Origin: a virus
DNA length: 26,720 bases
IMG/VR virus record: IMGVR_UViG_3300047371_000062
Location: 1-26,720 of that record
Strand: one strand, 5' to 3'
The notes under the pieces were generated by a model, which saw only the letters and a list, made by a program, of their open reading frames with translations, had not been told where the DNA came from and did not search any database. Below, in pieces: positions 15,571 to 22,764 of this stretch (the first letter of the stretch is position 1; each line of letters begins with the position of its first letter). Position numbers and translations under genes: made by a program.

Positions 15571-16458
15571 ATGAACAGACCTAAGAGACAGTTTTATTTG
15601 ACTAATAAGGACTTGTTAAGAGAGATCCACAAAAGTAAGATGTCTTATTGTTGGACTAAAACGGATGAGTTCTCTCATTTTGACATTATTGTTGAAGACA
15701 TCAAAGATCTTAAAAAACGAACAGTATTAGCAGAAGCAAAACAAAACAGAGCAACACGATTACAAAAACAAGCACACGAAGCTGAAGTAATTAGATGGGA
15801 GCAAGGGTTAACTGGTAAAAAAACTAAACCAAGAGTAGCCGACTTTGCAGTTGATGTTAAGAGTATAAAAGATTCTGATGTTGTAGTAAGAGTAATGACA
15901 TTTGAACACGTACCTTTAGAAAATAGAAAAAACAAACCAAAAACAGAAGCAGACCTTCACGCAAAATGTAACTTCCCACCATTTAAGCATTATGCTAAAG
16001 ATGATGATAAAAAATGGCAAGAAGTAGGAAGATCACATTGGGAAGGTGGAGTAGATAATGGACACTTTAATGTAGGACATGGAAAGACTAGTGACAATTT
16101 AGCTCGTATGTATATCAAGTTATGTGAACGATATAGTATGCGTGGTAACTGGCGTGGTTATACATATGTAGATGAGATGCGAGGACAAGCACTATTACAA
16201 CTTGCACAAATTGGATTACAATTTAATGAACTTAAAAGTAATAATCCATTTGCATATTATACAGCCGCAATTAATAATAGCTTTACTAGAGTTCTTAATT
16301 TAGAAAAAAGAAGTCAAAATATTAGAGATGATTTATTAGAAGAAGAAGGCTTAAACCCTAGTCATACTAGAACTTTTAATGCACAATGGGAAGCTGATCA
16401 AGAACGAAGAGAAAAAGAAAAAAACAAACCAATTATACCAAGTCCATTATCAAAATAG
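15571..16458 (+). CDS. 55: late-transcription sigma factor gp55 with a large insertion
   Basis: gp55 directs host RNA polymerase to late promoters. Two blocks match T4 gp55. The N-terminal RQFYLTNKDLLREI (residues 6-19) corresponds to T4 YNYVNNKELLQAI. The core at residues 177-250 (RGNWRGYTYVDEM, then NNPFAYYTAAINNSFTRVLN) corresponds to T4 SGYTQSWKQEM and NPHAYITQACFNAFVQRI. T4 has roughly 45 residues between these blocks, whereas here there are about 180, so about 130 residues are inserted; a charged, helix-prone stretch occupies 47-78. The C-terminus is short (ends PIIPSPLSK) and lacks an obvious T4-like clamp-binding tail such as SPSLDFL. It is the first gene after the early promoter. Several NATAAATA sites in this window would be its targets. 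Confidence 0.85.
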   Translation: MNRPKRQFYLTNKDLLREIHKSKMSYCWTKTDEFSHFDIIVEDIKDLKKRTVLAEAKQNRATRLQKQAHEAEVIRWEQGLTGKKTKPRVADFAVDVKSIKDSDVVVRVMTFEHVPLENRKNKPKTEADLHAKCNFPPFKHYAKDDDKKWQEVGRSHWEGGVDNGHFNVGHGKTSDNLARMYIKLCERYSMRGNWRGYTYVDEMRGQALLQLAQIGLQFNELKSNNPFAYYTAAINNSFTRVLNLEKRSQNIRDDLLEEEGLNPSHTRTFNAQWEADQERREKEKNKPIIPSPLSK

Positions 16459-16466
16459 GAGACTAA

Positions 16467-17354
16467 ATGATTACAGTAGTATACGGTAGTTATAACGGTA
16501 CCCAAGATAGCATAGCTTGGTGGTTATGTAATTCTACAACTAAGAACATTGGTCCACAAGTATATGAGTTTTTACCAGACACTTATAAATGGACTGGTCA
16601 AGCTGGTCATCGTAGTGGTATGATTTTAGACAGAATTAGACACGAAGAGTATACTGACTGTCATAGACTTATGGAAAATATACGTGGTGACATTATTGCA
16701 CCAATGCGTAAGTTTGAAAAAGATTATGATATGTTATTGTGGAGTAATTTCTTTGGTAACTTAAAACATCAAGATCAAAAAATAGAATGTGATAAACTTA
16801 TTATATGTGATCAAGATACTTACGAAGATGCTCTTCATTATGTAACTACTCATGCCTTTGGAAATTTAGACAAAGACGCCATTGATGAGCATAGTGAACT
16901 ATGGTGGACTGATCACAAATTAGTAAATGACAAGGTAACAGATAATTGGAAAAAAGTATGGTATGACACATACCATCAAAAGATGCATGATGAATTTGAT
17001 AAAGGTAATCTATTGTATATGTGGCAATTAAATTATATGCATTGGGATGTTAATAGTTTAATTGAAGGTAAAGATATAAAACCAACACTTGAACCTGCAG
17101 ACAACTTAAAAAGATTATTATTTGAAAAATTACTTGATAACAAATATGGAATTAGAACACATAGCACATTATGGAATAACCCAGGTGCATTATACATACG
17201 TGACCCACATTGGTTTAATGATGCTGATAAGATATTAAAATTTTTAGAAATTGAGAGATGCAGTAAACTCACTGAATCACTTGACAAATATAAACATGAG
17301 TATATAATAAGACGTGACTGGTTTGATTCATTAGTTAAGAAAACCTTTGCCTAG
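16467..17354 (+). CDS. protein of unknown function in the gp55-gp47 operon
   Basis: This 295-aa soluble protein has no family I recognise. It starts with a beta-strand-like MITVVYGSYNG, is rich in Trp, His and Asp (for example HSELWWTDHKL at about 142-152), and shows RDPHWFNDADKILKFLEIE near the C-terminus. There is no P-loop, signal peptide or membrane segment. AGGAG (16457-16461) lies five bases before the ATG and overlaps the gp55 stop, while gp47 follows after eight bases. It should be expressed early together with recombination functions. The C-terminal R-D-P-x-W-F stretch faintly recalls sulfotransferase-like or kinase-like folds, but this is not strong enough to assign. Confidence 0.8.
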   Translation: MITVVYGSYNGTQDSIAWWLCNSTTKNIGPQVYEFLPDTYKWTGQAGHRSGMILDRIRHEEYTDCHRLMENIRGDIIAPMRKFEKDYDMLLWSNFFGNLKHQDQKIECDKLIICDQDTYEDALHYVTTHAFGNLDKDAIDEHSELWWTDHKLVNDKVTDNWKKVWYDTYHQKMHDEFDKGNLLYMWQLNYMHWDVNSLIEGKDIKPTLEPADNLKRLLFEKLLDNKYGIRTHSTLWNNPGALYIRDPHWFNDADKILKFLEIERCSKLTESLDKYKHEYIIRRDWFDSLVKKTFA

Positions 17355-18386: not shown

Positions 18387-20162
18387 ATGTTAAAAATTAA
18401 AAACATCACCGTAAAGAATTTTATGAGTGTGGGCAATGTCACACAGGCTGTTCATTTTGATAAACACGGCCTTACACTTGTGTTGGGTAACAACATTGAT
18501 TTAGGTGGAGATGGTTCACGTAATGGTACAGGTAAAACAACTATTATTAACGCATTAAGTTATGCGTTATACGGAAACGCACTTTATAATATTAAAAAAG
18601 ATAATCTAGTTAATAAAACTAATAACAAAGCAATGATGGTTACTTGTGACTTTGAAAAAGATGGACTAGCATATAGAATTGAAAGAGGTCGTAAGCCGAA
18701 CACATTTAGATATTTAATTAATAATCACGATACTACTGAAGGCATCACTGATGAAATGCAAGGCGAAGGTAGACAAAGTCAAGCAGTAATTGAACAAACA
18801 TTAGGTATGACTCATACTATGTTTAAACATATTGTTGCACTTAACACATACACAGATCCTTTTTTAAGTATGAGAGCTAACGATCAACGTGAGATGATTG
18901 AACAACTACTTGGTATTACAAAATTAAGTGAAAAAGCTGATATACTAAAAGAACTTTCAAAAAATACCAAAGATAAGATTACAGAAGAAACTTATAAAAT
19001 AAAAGGTATTGAAGATGCTAACGAAAGAATTAATAGCAGTATCAAAGATTTAGAACGTAGACAAACACAATGGACACTAAAACGTGATCAACGTTTAACA
19101 GAGTCTAAACAAGAAATACAAGTGTTGGAACATATTAATATTGATAATGAATTACAAGCACACGATGAATTTGCAAAGTTTACAGAAAAAAGAAATCAAA
19201 TAGATACATTAAATTCTGAAATTGCAAAACTTACAACACACATTGAACGTGAAACAAAACGTAGAGACAAAGCACAACAAGATTTAGATCATGCAAAAGA
19301 TCATAAGTGTTATGCTTGTGGTCAAGAAATACATGATGAACAACATGATAAAATTGTTACAAGTAAAACTGAAGCAGTAAACGAATGTCAAGAGATCATA
19401 GACGAAGATGAAAATTTATTAAAAGATTATAGAATAGGATTAGAAGAAATTGGTGAATTGGGTGATGCTCCTAGAACAGAGTACAACACATTAAATGAAG
19501 CCTATGAACATCAAAACAAAATAAATCAACTAAAGTATGATTTAACAAATGCTGAAAACGAAGCTAATCCATATGCAGAACAAATTGATTCTTTACAGGC
19601 TACAGGATTACAAGAAGTAGATTGGGCAGAAGTAAATAGATTAACAGAATTAAAAGAACATCAAGATTTTTTAATGAAACTACTTACAAACAAAGATAGT
19701 TTTATACGTAAAAAGATTATTGAACAAAACTTGCAGTTCTTAAATACAAGGCTTGAATATTATATTACAAGACTTGGACTACCACATGAAGTACAATTTC
19801 AAAGTGACTTAACAGTTACAATTACACAACTAGGTCAAGACTTAGACTTTGATAATCTAAGTAGAGGTGAACGTAATAGACTTATACTTGGATTAAGCTG
19901 GAGTTTTAGAGATGTATTTGAAAGTATGAATCATCCTATTAACTTATTGTGTATTGACGAACTTGTTGATAGTGGTATGGATACTATTGGAGTAGAGAGT
20001 GCATTAGGCATTCTTAAAAAGATGGAAAGAGACAGAGGCAAGAACGTAATATTAATTTCTCACAGAGATGAGTTAGTAGGTAGAGTAGGAAGTGTACTAC
20101 AGGTTGTAAAAGAAAATGGGTTTACAACATTCAATACTGAAATAGAAGTAATTGACGCATAA
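18387..20162 (+). CDS. 46: recombination nuclease ATPase subunit gp46 (Rad50/SbcC-like)
   Basis: This 591-aa SMC-like ATPase works with gp47. Walker A is GSRNGTGKTT (about residues 43-52). Long coiled-coil arms flank a zinc-hook CYAC (Cys308, Cys311), then the ABC signature LSRGERNRL (about 491-499), Walker B LLCIDELVD (about 520) and the switch His in LISHRDE. T4 gp46 is 560 aa. An in-frame TTG lies 12 bases upstream, inside gp47, but ATG 18387 (MLKIKNITVKNFMSVGN) gives the usual gp46 N-terminus and is preferred. It is followed by a TAATG overlap with the endonuclease gene. Confidence 0.95.
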   Translation: MLKIKNITVKNFMSVGNVTQAVHFDKHGLTLVLGNNIDLGGDGSRNGTGKTTIINALSYALYGNALYNIKKDNLVNKTNNKAMMVTCDFEKDGLAYRIERGRKPNTFRYLINNHDTTEGITDEMQGEGRQSQAVIEQTLGMTHTMFKHIVALNTYTDPFLSMRANDQREMIEQLLGITKLSEKADILKELSKNTKDKITEETYKIKGIEDANERINSSIKDLERRQTQWTLKRDQRLTESKQEIQVLEHINIDNELQAHDEFAKFTEKRNQIDTLNSEIAKLTTHIERETKRRDKAQQDLDHAKDHKCYACGQEIHDEQHDKIVTSKTEAVNECQEIIDEDENLLKDYRIGLEEIGELGDAPRTEYNTLNEAYEHQNKINQLKYDLTNAENEANPYAEQIDSLQATGLQEVDWAEVNRLTELKEHQDFLMKLLTNKDSFIRKKIIEQNLQFLNTRLEYYITRLGLPHEVQFQSDLTVTITQLGQDLDFDNLSRGERNRLILGLSWSFRDVFESMNHPINLLCIDELVDSGMDTIGVESALGILKKMERDRGKNVILISHRDELVGRVGSVLQVVKENGFTTFNTEIEVIDA

Positions 20163-20587
20163 TGATAGACTGGACTTACAAAGGTGAAGTGGTTACAGAA
20201 ATTCCAACAGGCGTTGAGGGATTTGTATATCTAATTACAAATACTACAAATAATAAAAAGTATATAGGTAAGAAGTTAGCAAAGTTTAAAACAACTAAAC
20301 CACCACTTAAAGGTAGAAAAAACAAAAGACGTGGAACAAAAGAAAGTGATTGGAGAGACTATTGGGGTTCTTCAGATCATTTAAATGCTGATGTTTTAAA
20401 GCTAGGTGAAGATAAGTTTACCAAGGAAATATTGCATTATTGCCCTAGTAGAGGCGTATTAAGCTATATGGAAGCAAAAGAACAGTTTGATCGCAAGGTA
20501 CTAGAAACAGACGATTACTATAATGGAATCATTAATGTTAGAGTAGGAAGTTCAAAAATTCTTACAGAACATCTGAAAAAAGGTTGA
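20162..20587 (+). CDS. GIY-YIG family endonuclease (Seg-like)
   Basis: This 141-aa protein has the GIY-YIG core: GFVYLITN (20-27) as the GIY strand, KYIGKK (33-38) as YIG, a basic stretch through 50-60, DWRDYWGSS (63-71) and Glu104 in MEAKEQ as the likely metal ligand. It lacks an obvious C-terminal DNA-binding domain, so it is a minimal nuclease. Comparable genes in T4-like phages are homing (Seg) or resident repair-type nucleases. It ends the gp55-gp46 operon through a TAATG overlap with gp46, which argues for a stably resident gene rather than a fresh insertion. Its stop codon overlaps the -35 box of the promoter for the following structured RNA. Confidence 0.82.
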   Translation: MIDWTYKGEVVTEIPTGVEGFVYLITNTTNNKKYIGKKLAKFKTTKPPLKGRKNKRRGTKESDWRDYWGSSDHLNADVLKLGEDKFTKEILHYCPSRGVLSYMEAKEQFDRKVLETDDYYNGIINVRVGSSKILTEHLKKG

Positions 20588-20612
20588 CAACGTTATCAAT
20601 CTTTGTTATATT
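20584..20612 (+). promoter_or_regulatory. near-perfect sigma70 promoter of the structured RNA
   Basis: TTGACA (20584-20589), a 17-base spacer and TATATT (20607-20612) give 11 of 12 consensus bases. The predicted start is near 20619, just before a 5' stem beginning at 20620. No open reading frame of note follows for 600 bases, so the promoter seems to serve an RNA gene. Confidence 0.85.
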
Positions 20613-20618
20613 ATTGAA

Positions 20619-21135
20619 AATTGGGGTTTTAAGTGCATAAACAGCAAATAATTAAAACATCATATAATTACAAATAACAATCCCAATAAAAAAGCAAAAC
20701 AGACTTAAAGTCAGACAATTACCGGCACACAACTCAATACTAATATAGGCACCAAGGCTCCGTTTGGTCGGCGTACGTCGACTCACCTTGAGGTCATGTT
20801 TCACATGATCGGATACTGGTGTTGCCAAAAAACGTCAATGCACTGATTTGACAAATCAAAAAGATCAAGCTCTCCTGACACTTGGAACTTGAGGATAGTC
20901 CGAAGTTGATAATATAGCAACGGATGTTTCTGCGTTAGTAAAGCAGTATGTAATAAGGGTACAGCGTAACCGCCCTTCCTAGGTGCTAATCTAGGTTTAC
21001 TATATTATTGTGTGTGTGCTTCTCGGTGAAGACCATTATTTACACTTGGCCTGCGGAAGGCGAAGTGTGAATAAAACATCTGGTGAAGTAGCAAGTATTC
21101 TACTAACATAAATACTATTACAAATTTTTGCTTTT
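20619..21135 (+). ncRNA. large highly structured non-coding RNA, class unrecognised
   Basis: About 500 nt follow a strong promoter with no credible protein gene. Nested long-range helices can be paired by eye. Ten pairs close the core (20690-20699 with 21126-21135). Ten pairs form 20721-20730 with 21014-21019 and 21024-21027, around a four-base bulge. Nine pairs form 20909-20917 with 21000-21008. Local hairpins include a 5' stem (20620-20626/20681-20687), a branched domain 20748-20826 with stems 20767-20772/20777-20782 and 20792-20799/20803-20810, and hairpins at 20845-20857, 20865-20892, 20930-20946, 20955-20977 and 20978-20995. A long stem 21038-21047/21063-21072 is capped by GCCT/AGGC. The region is also richer in G and C than its neighbours. 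Size and phage context recall the GOLLD and ROOL giant RNAs, but I cannot confirm membership. The 3' end is uncertain and may reach about 21215. Confidence 0.72.
21107..21114 (+). promoter_or_regulatory. late promoter CATAAATA inside the 3' part of the structured RNA
   Basis: CATAAATA matches the NATAAATA late motif, with an expected start near 21120. It would give a leader of about 100 bases for the 156-aa gene at 21219, so the RNA region and the downstream gene may be used at different times. Confidence 0.55.
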
Positions 21136-21143
21136 CTAGACAG

Positions 21144-21202
21144 CGATAGCTAATACATCGAGTTTGACGTAGTCAAACGAAGATGGTGATGTCGTAGACA
21201 TC
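21144..21202 (+). promoter_or_regulatory. twin GUA-loop hairpins in the leader of the 156-aa gene
   Basis: Two perfect hairpins with the same GTA triloop follow each other: a seven-pair stem 21162-21168/21172-21178 and a six-pair stem 21188-21193/21197-21202. The loop-closing ends are mirror images (GAC-GTA-GTC and GTC-GTA-GAC). A weaker stem pairs 21144-21147 with 21157-21160. They lie between the late promoter and the start codon and may be a protein or translation control site, or a 3' domain of the large RNA. Confidence 0.5.
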
Positions 21203-21218
21203 AATTACCTGACAAGCA

Positions 21219-21689
21219 ATGAAAGACATAATGAACTTCGACGACTTTATTACTAAATTCTTACAATGGACTGAAGATACGATAGAAAAGCCTCGTTCTG
21301 ACTTAGACGCCCAACCTATATGTCCATTTGCACGTAAGGCTAGATTGCAAAAGAAAATCCAGTTCTTGGATGCACGTAACTCTCTAGATGAAATAAAAAC
21401 ATTTGACCAAGAAAAATTTGAGATTGGTATTGCCTGGTTAGGTGATATAGATGATATTGGTCCTGTAGAAAAATTTTGCGAAGATCATATGAAAGCCAAT
21501 CCTGAACTATTACTTTTTACAAGTACACGTGATAGTGGACATTTTGCAAAAAACTTTACGGATTGTGTATTTGTTCAATTACGAGGTGATATACTTAAGA
21601 AACGTAAGTATCTAAAAACTACTAACTATTATGAGAATTGGCCTGCAGAGTATTATAAACTAATTACCGGCGACCAGAAGCCTGTTTAG
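21219..21689 (+). CDS. protein of unknown function, 156 aa
   Basis: This small soluble acidic protein has no function I recognise. Notable features are the N-terminal helix MNFDDFITKFLQWTED, a CPFARKARLQKK segment (about 35-46) and the C-terminal KYLKTTNYYENWPAEYYKL. The Cys-Pro-Phe-Ala pattern recalls a DUF1415-like segment, but I cannot support this further. ATG 21219 is the first start; a second ATG at 21231 (MNFDDF) is equally possible, and neither has a strong Shine-Dalgarno. The likely promoter is the late motif at 21107. Its 3' end overlaps the convergent gp26 extension by 26 bases (21664-21689). Confidence 0.75.
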   Translation: MKDIMNFDDFITKFLQWTEDTIEKPRSDLDAQPICPFARKARLQKKIQFLDARNSLDEIKTFDQEKFEIGIAWLGDIDDIGPVEKFCEDHMKANPELLLFTSTRDSGHFAKNFTDCVFVQLRGDILKKRKYLKTTNYYENWPAEYYKLITGDQKPV

Positions 21690-21942
21690 ATTGCTTGTTC
21701 AACTCTTCAATCCTACTATTCATTCTTTCAACTAACAATGCTATACTGTTTACGGGCATAGTCATTATGTCTTGATAACTGAAAGAACCTTCAGATCGAA
21801 TCACTATGTCAATATAATTTGACTCAGTCTTTTCGTGATCTTTATTATAACGTTCAACTATTTTAATGATTTCTTCGGGCTGACGAGAAGCTATCAACCC
21901 ACGAAAAAATTTGCTACATCCAAGTCTACACCAGTTTTCCAT
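21664..21942 (-). CDS. -1 frame extension of the gp26-like protein (GT-type chaperone tail)
   Basis: The open frame from 21942 to the TAA at 21666-21664 overlaps the 3' end of the gp26-like gene by 49 bases and lies in its -1 frame. The ATG at 21942 has no ribosome site, so independent expression is unlikely. Frameshifting at 21912-21906 would add 80 residues (starting F-R-G-L-I-A-S-R) to 272 residues of gp26, making a protein of about 352 aa. The extension is helical and charged, with SYQDIMTMPVNSIALLVERM near the end. This is the layout of lambda gpG/gpGT, where the T extension recruits the tape measure protein. The function is inferred from the layout, not from sequence similarity to T. 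Confidence 0.7.
   Translation of the reverse strand: MENWCRLGCSKFFRGLIASRQPEEIIKIVERYNKDHEKTESNYIDIVIRSEGSFSYQDIMTMPVNSIALLVERMNSRIEELNKQSKQASGRR
21877..21912 (-). promoter_or_regulatory. programmed -1 ribosomal frameshift signal in the gp26-like gene
   Basis: On the minus strand, the gp26 frame reads GCA AAT TTT TTC GTG GGT TGA. A-AAT-TTT (21912-21906) is a canonical X-XXY-YYZ slippery heptamer, overlapped by T-TTT-TTC (21909-21903), also canonical. Five bases after the first heptamer a hairpin begins: GGGTTGA (21900-21894) pairs with TCAGCCC (21883-21877) in seven pairs, one of them G-U, with a ten-base loop. The gp26 stop codon lies inside the stem. Confidence 0.75.
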
Positions 21943-22721
21943 TCATGTTGACATTCTTGACACTTTGCGTTAAACGCAGTTTCAAGACCTGATTCGCTGA
22001 GTTCTTCAACTTTAGCTTTTACTTTGTCATAATCACTTTTGGTTATAGTTTGTAACCACTCTTTGATCATTTCTTTGTCAACTATTGTATCGCCGTTTGC
22101 ATTAACACTACTAATACTATTAGTAATCAATGCTACTGTAAGTTCTGCAATTTCTACAAATGTTTTACCAAATAACTCTTGTCTGCCGGCATCATCTAAT
22201 TTTGCGTCAGCTAAACTAGCAATCATTTTTTGCTGTTTAATTTGTTGTACTTGCAAAGTAGTTCTATCTTGTAACGTATATGGGTTACAAGTAACCTTAA
22301 TATCATCTTGTATAACAACTTCTTGATCTGATGTTGTTGATTTTGTATTAGATAACATTGCACTTGCATTGAGTGTTAGTTGGTTTTGGTGTTCGCATTT
22401 TGGACATTTAACATCTATATCAATGTCCTTACCGAAACTTGCTTGTCTAATTCCAACCAGTATTACTAATAAATCACTGACCGGCATATTATTTGGATCT
22501 TTAATATCCGGACAACAACTTTTAATTAGACTTACTGTGGCTTCTCCGTTAAACAGAGCATCCGGTGTCTTGGTTATAAGTTCATCCCTTGCTGTCATTG
22601 CATATACTGCTAGTTCGTTATCTGCTGATAATGTTGGTTTATCTTTATAGAATCTACCACCACTTGGCAAACTTACGTACATATTTGGTTTTCTATATGC
22701 TTGAATTAATGGGTTTGTCAT
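21894..22721 (-). CDS. 26: gp26-like baseplate hub assembly / tail chaperone protein
   Basis: This 275-aa protein resembles the T4-like baseplate hub assembly protein annotated as gp26 in marine phages. It has an N-terminal YRKPNMYVSLPSGGRFYKD (residues 9-27) and a central CPKC (Cys106, Cys109) paired with a C-terminal CQEC (Cys254, Cys257), which together suggest a zinc ribbon. T4 gp26 is 208 aa. I chose ATG 22721 because GGAGA (22731-22727) precedes it; an in-frame ATG at 22742 lies before that site. A late promoter at 22796-22789 should drive it. Four codons before its stop is the frameshift signal, so both a 275-aa and a roughly 352-aa product are expected. The divergent neighbour is a tape-measure-like gene, which fits a chaperone role. 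gp51 is an alternative name. Confidence 0.75.
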   Translation of the reverse strand: MTNPLIQAYRKPNMYVSLPSGGRFYKDKPTLSADNELAVYAMTARDELITKTPDALFNGEATVSLIKSCCPDIKDPNNMPVSDLLVILVGIRQASFGKDIDIDVKCPKCEHQNQLTLNASAMLSNTKSTTSDQEVVIQDDIKVTCNPYTLQDRTTLQVQQIKQQKMIASLADAKLDDAGRQELFGKTFVEIAELTVALITNSISSVNANGDTIVDKEMIKEWLQTITKSDYDKVKAKVEELSESGLETAFNAKCQECQHEWKTGVDLDVANFFVG

Positions 22722-22764
22722 TAGTTTCTCCAATTTATACATTATAGTATACTTTAATGAATAC

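Follow-up and report, generated by a model that had tools for sequence, protein, structure and literature searches.

Large, elaborately folded RNAs are already known from several phages. GOLLD and ROOL, as presented in the portions of PMC12286853 available to us, are phage-borne non-coding RNAs roughly comparable in size to the one treated here, with elaborate structure and with kissing loops that bridge molecules. The lytic phage ICP1 makes an abundant transcript of ca. 800 nt that has no open reading frame (ORF), according to excerpts of PMC7567579. A 2010 survey, in the part available to us, listed the Polynucleobacter-1 RNA (RF01718 in Rfam, a 141-nt model) for Burkholderiales and for fresh water/estuary, with the entry 'y y ?' (PMC2864571). 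The locus analyzed here is in the IMG/VR virus record IMGVR_UViG_3300047371_000062, of which positions 1 to 26,720 (26,720 nt) are called the window. Positions 20619 to ca. 21206 are very probably the gene for a large folded non-coding RNA of ca. 590 nt. Its start is placed by a promoter and its end by the last conserved hairpin, and its transcription is predicted from sequence.

The window RNA resembles GOLLD and ROOL in phage origin, approximate size, elaborate structure and kissing loops. It differs in having no neighboring tRNAs and in a pair of twin loops, a feature not mentioned for GOLLD or ROOL in the portions available. A preliminary description of the window had suggested that the RNA might belong to one of these classes. 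This was not borne out – the window has no such Rfam match up to E = 10 and no tRNA, and the two Rfam models matched neither the window nor the relatives scanned. The ICP1 transcript is likewise a large ORF-less RNA of comparable size, but it lies near the lysis genes of another phage, and the likeness is one of description.

The relationship to Polynucleobacter-1 is closer. The window RNA itself does not match RF01718, either at the gathering score or up to E = 10, but of 20 divergent loci that were scanned, 12 have a match to the model immediately 5' of the core. A further locus, L146, is among the most divergent members of the family (32.3 bits with our covariance model R1) and has an RF01718 match of 89.4 bits at the same place. 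RF01718 and the shared 3' core are found within one RNA, and the core of the window is homologous to the core of those loci. The window RNA differs in its 5' domain, and at full length it exceeds the model about fourfold. Polynucleobacter-1 looks like the 5' domain of a longer phage RNA in a sister clade, with the core shared between that clade and the window.

A description of the full-length RNA was not found in the open-licence papers searched, including the available parts of PMC2864571, PMC12286853, PMC7567579, PMC13282480 and PMC5259590; nor was one found of the class, the twin loops or the multi-copy layout. None of the searched terms is present in PMC6892783 or PMC7760394, and the text of the paper on phage CBB has neither 'intergenic' nor 'non-coding'. 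Large ornate phage RNAs are a known kind; the twin-loop RNA of jumbo phages is proposed here as a class.

Gene, fold and covariation of the RNA

The preliminary description had found no credible gene in this region, and about 600 nt are indeed free of one. The longest ORF is 58 aa in L001, a locus identical in sequence to the window at the RNA, and 24–75 aa in the other 12 close relatives; on these short lengths, and with no Pfam match for the 58-aa ORF, a protein-coding reading was rejected. Folding of the region gave z = -4.39, with none of 100 shuffles as good, in agreement with the large structured RNA that had been proposed. ARAGORN found neither a tRNA nor a tmRNA in the window, and Rfam gave no match there to RNase P or a group I intron, as the preliminary description had also held. 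Both of the latter were tried as candidates and rejected: the sequence GAGGATAGTCCG and a later ACAG..AACCGCC resemble RNase P motifs, but GAGGATAGTCCG is not conserved in the family, and the group I intron was a resemblance only. The Rfam search of the window had no match at the gathering score and, up to E = 10, three matches by chance, each to some other family, scoring well under the respective cut-off and located around the promoter or upstream gene. A 24-base stretch at 356–379 on the minus strand, inside the long first gene, matches 21105–21128 at 92%, probably by chance.

The sigma70-type promoter reported upstream of the RNA was verified, with 11 of the 12 consensus bases and a TG ahead of the -10 hexamer. 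Promoter-like sites overall are as common in shuffled sequence (52.6) as in the window (51), so the conservation of the promoter outweighs its score: the pattern of TTGACA and a -10-like hexamer is present upstream of the RNA in 12 of the 13 close relatives (all except L025). A 12/12 match to the sigma70 consensus also occurs at 17281–17308 (+), inside the ORF at 16467–17354.

The structure of the core was assessed in an alignment of 53 sequences with a hand-written structure of 37 pairs. (The covariance models R1, for the family of the window, and R2, for the RaK2-like group described below, are distinct from the twin loops R1 and R2.) Of the cells, 94.7% were paired, compared to 75.2% in shuffles. 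The covariation score was 0.546, with 0.195 in shuffles and at most 0.132 for versions of the structure slid along the alignment, a comparison that favors the unslid structure, which was derived from the same 53 sequences. Cells with changes on both sides of a pair numbered 399, relative to 123.7 in shuffles, and none of 500 shuffles was as high. In an unsupervised ranking over all column pairs, the kissing helix came first.

This helix, 20909–20917/21000–21008, was one of three long-range helices in the preliminary description, and it is strongly maintained. Eight of its nine pairs are kept in all 13 close relatives and the other in 10 of them; two pairs have changes on both sides among the 13, and all five core pairs do over the 53 diverse sequences. 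A switch or pseudoknot had been suspected at this point, and the hairpin loop does pair with the downstream strand, forming a kissing-loop pseudoknot with compensatory changes in the family of the window. The GTTG/CAAC hairpin described around this loop (20905–20921) did not hold in its exact form – 20907 and 20919 are unpaired in 9 of 13 relatives – while a 3-bp version covaries. Adjoining the kissing helix is a second long-range helix, Px, which had been missed earlier. Hairpins Pa, Pb, Pd and Pe also covary over the 53 sequences. The inner part of Pd served as a search motif, and its near-invariance comes partly from that selection. Stem Pf is 82.1% paired, because its register differs between clades.

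The two other long-range helices were not supported. In helix 20690–20699/21126–21135, nine of ten pairs fail in at least three of the 13 relatives, and four fail in most of the relatives that have letters there. In helix 20721–20730/21014–21027, seven of ten pairs fail in at least three of the 13, four of them in most, and no pair has changes on both sides. The alignment at both places is AT-rich and gappy, and the result is a lack of support, not a disproof. The earlier argument from the consistent nesting of three helices therefore fails for two of them, while its conclusion, a large structured RNA, holds. Outside the core, the inner hairpins of the 5' domain have changes on both sides among 29 relatives, and its outer pairs are conserved only in part. 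The TGATTT/AAATCA hairpin is overlapped by an alternative, almost invariant pairing (20834–20838/20848–20852).

Identical loops on both sides of stem Pf

In the window (row L001 of the alignment), the sequence GGTGAAG is found on both sides of stem Pf. Throughout the family each side of Pf has a hairpin with a GNNA loop, the tetramer of which depends on the clade: GTCA, GACA, GGCA, GTGA, GGAA, GCCA, GTAA, GGTA or GGGA. The same tetramer is present on both sides in all 38 representatives that have GNNA in loop R2 (3 of the 41 do not). With the criterion that the loop R2 tetramer may be anywhere in the R1 zone, it was found there in all 50 rows having GNNA (3 of the 53 rows have none); with permuted partners the mean was 9.25 and the maximum 21 in 2000 permutations. 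The state of loop R2 required 16 parsimony changes on one tree of the core built without the loops. Among 35 loci found later, 28 of 28 had identical tetramers; four duplicates were dropped, and three further rows had no GNNA. Very divergent members have other doubled motifs, AGCGAA twice in L146 and ACGAAAT twice in L145.

There is no third copy of the twin motif in the same RNA beyond constant sequence, and the DNA on either side shows no enrichment of the motif. Pairing of loop R1 with loop R2 was ruled out, as the tetramers are mostly non-palindromic. Because identical loops cannot pair with each other, one partner bound twice is the simplest reading of the twin loops.

Table 1. Positions in the window of the RNA gene, its promoter, its structural elements and the genes of the surrounding slot.
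Feature	Position	Strand	Basis
Gene for SegE-like GIY-YIG protein, flanking the RNA as part of the slot	20162–20587	+	Conserved slot
Sigma70-type promoter TTGACA-17-TATATT, extended -10; predicted transcription start ca. 20619	20584–20612	+	Sequence and relatives
Non-coding RNA gene (very probable), ca. 590 nt	20619–21206	+	Folding, relatives, covariation
5' hairpin GTTTTAA/TTAAAAC	20626–20658	+	alifold, 13 relatives; little variation, weak evidence
5' domain, inner hairpins 20767–20770/20779–20782 and 20792–20798/20804–20810	20748–20826	+	29 relatives
Hairpin TGATTT/AAATCA (20844–20849/20853–20858)	20844–20858	+	One pair with changes on both sides
Conserved core	20858–21094	+	cmsearch, model R1, 220.3 bits (L001 was in the model)
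Helix Pa 20865–20869/20888–20892, inner 20873–20875/20884–20886	20865–20892	+	Covariation
Hairpin Pb (20905–20907/20916–20918), presents the kissing loop	20905–20918	+	Covariation
Kissing loop, 5' strand of pseudoknot	20909–20917	+	Covariation and ranking
Long-range helix Px, 5' strand (3' strand 20998–21000)	20946–20948	+	Covariation
Hairpin Pd, near-invariant motif GGTACMGCRTAACCGCC at 20958–20974	20955–20977	+	Alignment
Hairpin Pe 20978–20982/20991–20995	20978–20995	+	Covariation
3' strand of pseudoknot	21000–21008	+	Covariation and ranking
Twin loop R1, GGTGAAG at 21025–21031	21019–21032	+	Loop comparison
Stem Pf 21043–21051/21059–21067, between the twin loops	21043–21067	+	Covariation
Twin loop R2, GGTGAAG at 21082–21088	21077–21090	+	Loop comparison
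3' domain: 21156–21159/21182–21185 around 21162–21168/21172–21178; last hairpin 21188–21193/21197–21202	21156–21202	+	alifold, 13 relatives
Gene for T4-type baseplate protein, flanking the other side of the slot	21894–22742	-	Conserved slot

Relatives, genome slot and cultured jumbo phages

The RNA core is present in at least 128 further viral contigs: 90 found with nhmmer, 3 full-length matches from cmsearch and 35 loci from a scan with a tighter motif. The first loci came from exact-motif scans of IMG/VR, and an nhmmer profile of the close relatives matched 91 of 137 loci, including the window's own copy (L011). Model R1, run on the window and 46 other loci, added three full-length divergent members (L029, L068 and L043), and all 35 of the new loci from the tighter scan matched. 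Members without the search motif are under-sampled. Three loci were discarded as chance matches to the motif: L004, L018 and L138, the last from a Heimdallarchaeota bin. Occurrence is nearly exclusive to viral contigs; the members found lie in such contigs mainly because these were searched. A strict 21-letter motif had a single match, by chance, in 84,980 prokaryote species genomes, a scan that may miss divergent copies. In the cultured-phage collection, blastn found no match to the RNA of the window's family; four records match the SegE-like gene only, and three weak rows are 27–36 nt long. Phage Melnitz (L013) has the SegE-like gene in common with the window, but model R1 finds no RNA in the 8.2 kb of it that were analyzed. 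Between the window and L009, identity is 99.2% in the core, 94.8% in the SegE-like gene and 79.1% in the downstream ORF.

In the window, as in most relatives, the RNA is located in a slot between the gene for an SbcC-like gp46 and a T4-type baseplate gene. All 41 representatives have a member of one of two gene families as the closest upstream neighbor of the RNA (34 SegE-like, 7 of another family), a count that passes over a minus-strand ORF of 75–84 aa overlapping the RNA in 5 of the 41. The gp46 gene is at most three ORFs upstream in 33 of the 41, and 33 likewise have the baseplate gene, on the opposite strand, no more than three ORFs downstream; the remainder include contigs cut at their ends. 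T4-type genes are present in the window, consistent with its first assignment to a T4-like phage. Among cultured phages, the flanking genes are best matched by jumbo phages – PA5oct, Phosso and Atu_ph07, then the GAP32/121Q group. For gp46 (50% identity) and the baseplate protein the best matches are PA5oct-like jumbo phages, followed by Phosso, Atu_ph07, Vibrio 2.275.O and the RaK2-like group. The phage of the window is presumably also of jumbo size, the record being a 26.7-kb fragment.

RNA-bearing contigs reach 221 and 235 kb. Among 12 environmental contigs (54.8–235.6 kb), 11 have one RNA place and the 235-kb contig has two; two further weak antisense matches overlap known RNA places. The second copy of the 235-kb contig (L145, ca. 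2010–2440) is divergent and lies beside other genes than the first (L086).

Downstream of the RNA is an ORF on the same strand (21219–21689), the true start of which may be 21231; L008 lacks the first ATG and keeps the second. The 3' part of the RNA contains a late-promoter-like CATAAATAC at 21107–21115 (+), which may drive this ORF. The corresponding sequence is TATAAATAC in L009, and 8 of 13 relatives have ATAAATA at the place of 21107. A gene for a late sigma factor (15571–16458) is also present in the window.

A similar RNA is present in cultured jumbo phages of the RaK2-like group. In GAP32, CBB, XaC1, XbC2 and Munch the slot has 680–810 nt without an annotated gene, and in SD-6_S16 it has only tiny ORFs; the slot stretches of these six phages are alike. 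In XacN1 the stretch ahead of the baseplate gene has annotated ORFs. The GAP32 stretch folds with z = -3.93 (100 shuffles) and has matches at 139 places in 31 of 50,697 phage records, some phages being represented by two records. In 11 of these records the core has the same order of elements and a structure of its own that is 98.5% paired, with a covariation score of 0.263 vs. 0.119 (11 members). Model R2 found five copies each in GAP32, Munch, XaC1, BF and XbC2 and four in 121Q, all on a single strand of each record. In these six genomes the spacing of the copies on a circle is more even than random (simulated P of 0.0007 to 0.028), though the genomes are related and not independent. A promoter-like TTGGAA-18-TATAAT with TG is found just upstream of the GAP32 copy in the gp46 slot (L224, 1478–1507).

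The kissing pair and the twin loops are also present in these copies. In 28 of 29 copies the region of the kissing loop has a perfect 7-bp complement in the downstream part, compared to a mean of 11.0 and a maximum of 19 in 500 trials with the downstream part of another copy, and 5.7 with letter shuffling. Corresponding copies tend to have one kissing 7-mer across genomes (TTCATGT, CTGAATT, ATTGTAT/ATTGCAT or rTCGAAT), with exceptions that include those of XaC1; in GAP32 and BF, two copies have ATTGTAT. Both twin loops are GTCA in all 29 copies, so that the tetramer is invariant in this group. The letter after GTCA is G on both sides in 16 copies, A on both in 12 and unlike in one.

The RNA of the RaK2-like group (GAP32, CBB, 121Q, Munch, BF, XaC1 and XbC2) thus has the same slot as the window RNA and the same order of elements: kissing-loop hairpin, helix beside the 3' kissing strand, ACAG..AACC hairpin, another hairpin, 3' kissing strand, twin loop, GC stem, twin loop. 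It differs in number, with up to five copies per genome, relative to one or two in the window's family. Because slot, element order, ACAG..AACC motif and twin loops agree, the two groups are read as one family, and common descent is in our judgement highly probable. The covariance models support it weakly. Model R2, run on 19 sources (154,301 bases; 15 with the window's family), had four matches, of which three fall within the core (L029, E = 0.04; L104, 0.097; L145, 0.11), the window not being among them; model R1, run on 21 RaK2-like loci, had no match on the core at E ≤ 1, its best (E = 0.26) being off the core.

With stricter filters, model R2 found no copy in six environmental contigs or anywhere in the complete records of PA5oct, Phosso, Atu_ph07 and Vibrio 2.275.O. 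The slots of PA5oct and Phosso have a long, strongly folding gap (z of -5.27 and -5.39, 20 shuffles each), and no convincing RNA match was found in them, model R1 without filters giving weak matches only. The best of the unfiltered slot matches (E = 0.013), antisense in PA5oct and Deifobo, was taken as chance. In PA5oct the stretch (L140, 3930–4830) has only tiny annotated ORFs, and in Phosso (L141, 3860–4650) none. Small hypothetical proteins, probably spurious, are annotated over the RNA or slot in L218, L221, L216 and L140.

Proposed role and competing explanations

An RNA of defined structure in a fixed slot, with loops that stay identical through many changes and with several copies in cultured relatives, calls for an account of the loops. 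The explanation that we lean toward is a structural RNA of ca. 590 nt that acts in trans, is transcribed from its own promoter, and is a two-site scaffold for one partner; the scaffold is proposed because the core has two identical, jointly changing loops. The RNA would be transcribed from its sigma70-type promoter in a phage related to jumbo phages. The core would be locked by the kissing-loop pseudoknot and the long-range helix beside it, and would expose a pair of hairpins that flank a stem and have the same apical loop. These twin loops would then be the working surface, each binding one copy of the same partner, which may be a protein of the phage or the host, or an RNA. When the recognition of the partner changes, both loops would have to change.

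Several observations weigh against this explanation. Two-site binding is suggested by the identity of the loop sequences alone. Kin sequences share loops by descent, and the loci found later are related to the first set; the 16 loop changes depend on one tree of a short alignment; and 3 of the 41 clusters share the motif only in part. Complements of the loops are also mildly enriched in the same RNA, with 41 5-mers vs. 31.9 (6 of 500 permutations as high) and 39 vs. 32.2 (18 of 500), and 20 6-mers vs. 15.1 when permuted (36 of 500), while 7-mers are not enriched. A partner in cis is therefore conceivable.

A broader reading, which we put forward tentatively, is that the PA5oct/RaK2 supergroup has a system of such RNAs: collinear, evenly spaced genes, each with a kissing 'address' specific to its slot and all with the same loop pair for one trans factor. 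This would be a genome-wide platform, for replication, transcription or packaging, and not a single regulatory RNA.

It is less easy to favor a homo-oligomer, in which the RNA would form a nanocage or ring like GOLLD and ROOL through intermolecular kissing, with the twin loops docking on neighboring copies. Size, phage origin, kissing loops and large conserved structure do resemble GOLLD and ROOL, and each of the five paralogues of Munch has a kissing pair of its own, which would fit assembly of like with like. However, identical and mostly non-palindromic loops cannot pair mutually, no third copy of the motif or strong complement was found in the RNA, the window has no tRNA, and the kissing pair common to two copies in GAP32 and in BF means that the pairs are not always distinct. 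On balance we consider such an assembly unlikely.

A role as a genome-position element, with the RNA genes as marks or primers of replication or of DNA partition (origin-linked R-loop RNAs being one example), would explain the four or five copies per cultured genome, all on one strand of the record, their even spacing (in genomes that are related) and the tendency of corresponding copies to keep their own kissing 7-mer. It does not explain the single RNA place in 11 of the 12 environmental contigs, with two in the 235-kb contig, and what is constrained is the pairing of the RNA and not merely a DNA motif. This makes it a rather poor candidate.

Reading of anticodons by the twin loops is very improbable. 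In each of two tRNAs, anticodon NNC and U33 would be contacted by GNN and the following A, much as in a T-box, and nearly all of the twin tetramers are indeed GNNA. The check covered the phage tRNAs of nine contigs. G003 (GACA, with GAAA in its second copy) has tRNA-Asp(gtc) and tRNA-Glu(ttc), which says little as they are among 20 matches. Even near relatives differ in the codon that the loop would represent, which switches between Ala, Val, Gly and Asp; G001 (GTGA, Val) has no tRNA-Val among the 11 of 12 tRNA matches read, the six tRNA matches of G002 include no matching tRNA, G005 (GGTA, Gly) has only His and Trp tRNAs, and G004, G006, G007 and G009 have no tRNA match.

A cis-regulatory leader of the gene at 21219–21689, which the same-strand ORF in the window and the survey entry for Polynucleobacter-1 (its 'y' falling in what we take to be the column for cis-regulation) might suggest, is scarcely tenable, because presence of the RNA does not depend on a same-strand ORF behind it. 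Several representatives (L104, L116 and others) have no same-strand gene next downstream, and several such clades retain both the RNA and the hairpins at its 3' end. The annotated gene that comes next is convergent in GAP32, CBB, XbC2, BF and 121Q (same-strand in XaC1), and CATAAATAC could serve the ORF instead.

GOLLD and ROOL are structured RNAs without known function; twin loops that stay identical while their letters change point at function. The class is also found in cultured phages, some of which infect laboratory strains of E. coli, so that a bench test is possible; the 121Q-like phage Sharanji, for one, is listed with host E. coli K12 MG1655. A 141-nt Rfam fragment can now be placed within a long phage RNA that is defined, and conserved RNA genes lie unannotated in jumbo phage genomes that have been annotated, sometimes under small and probably spurious ORFs.

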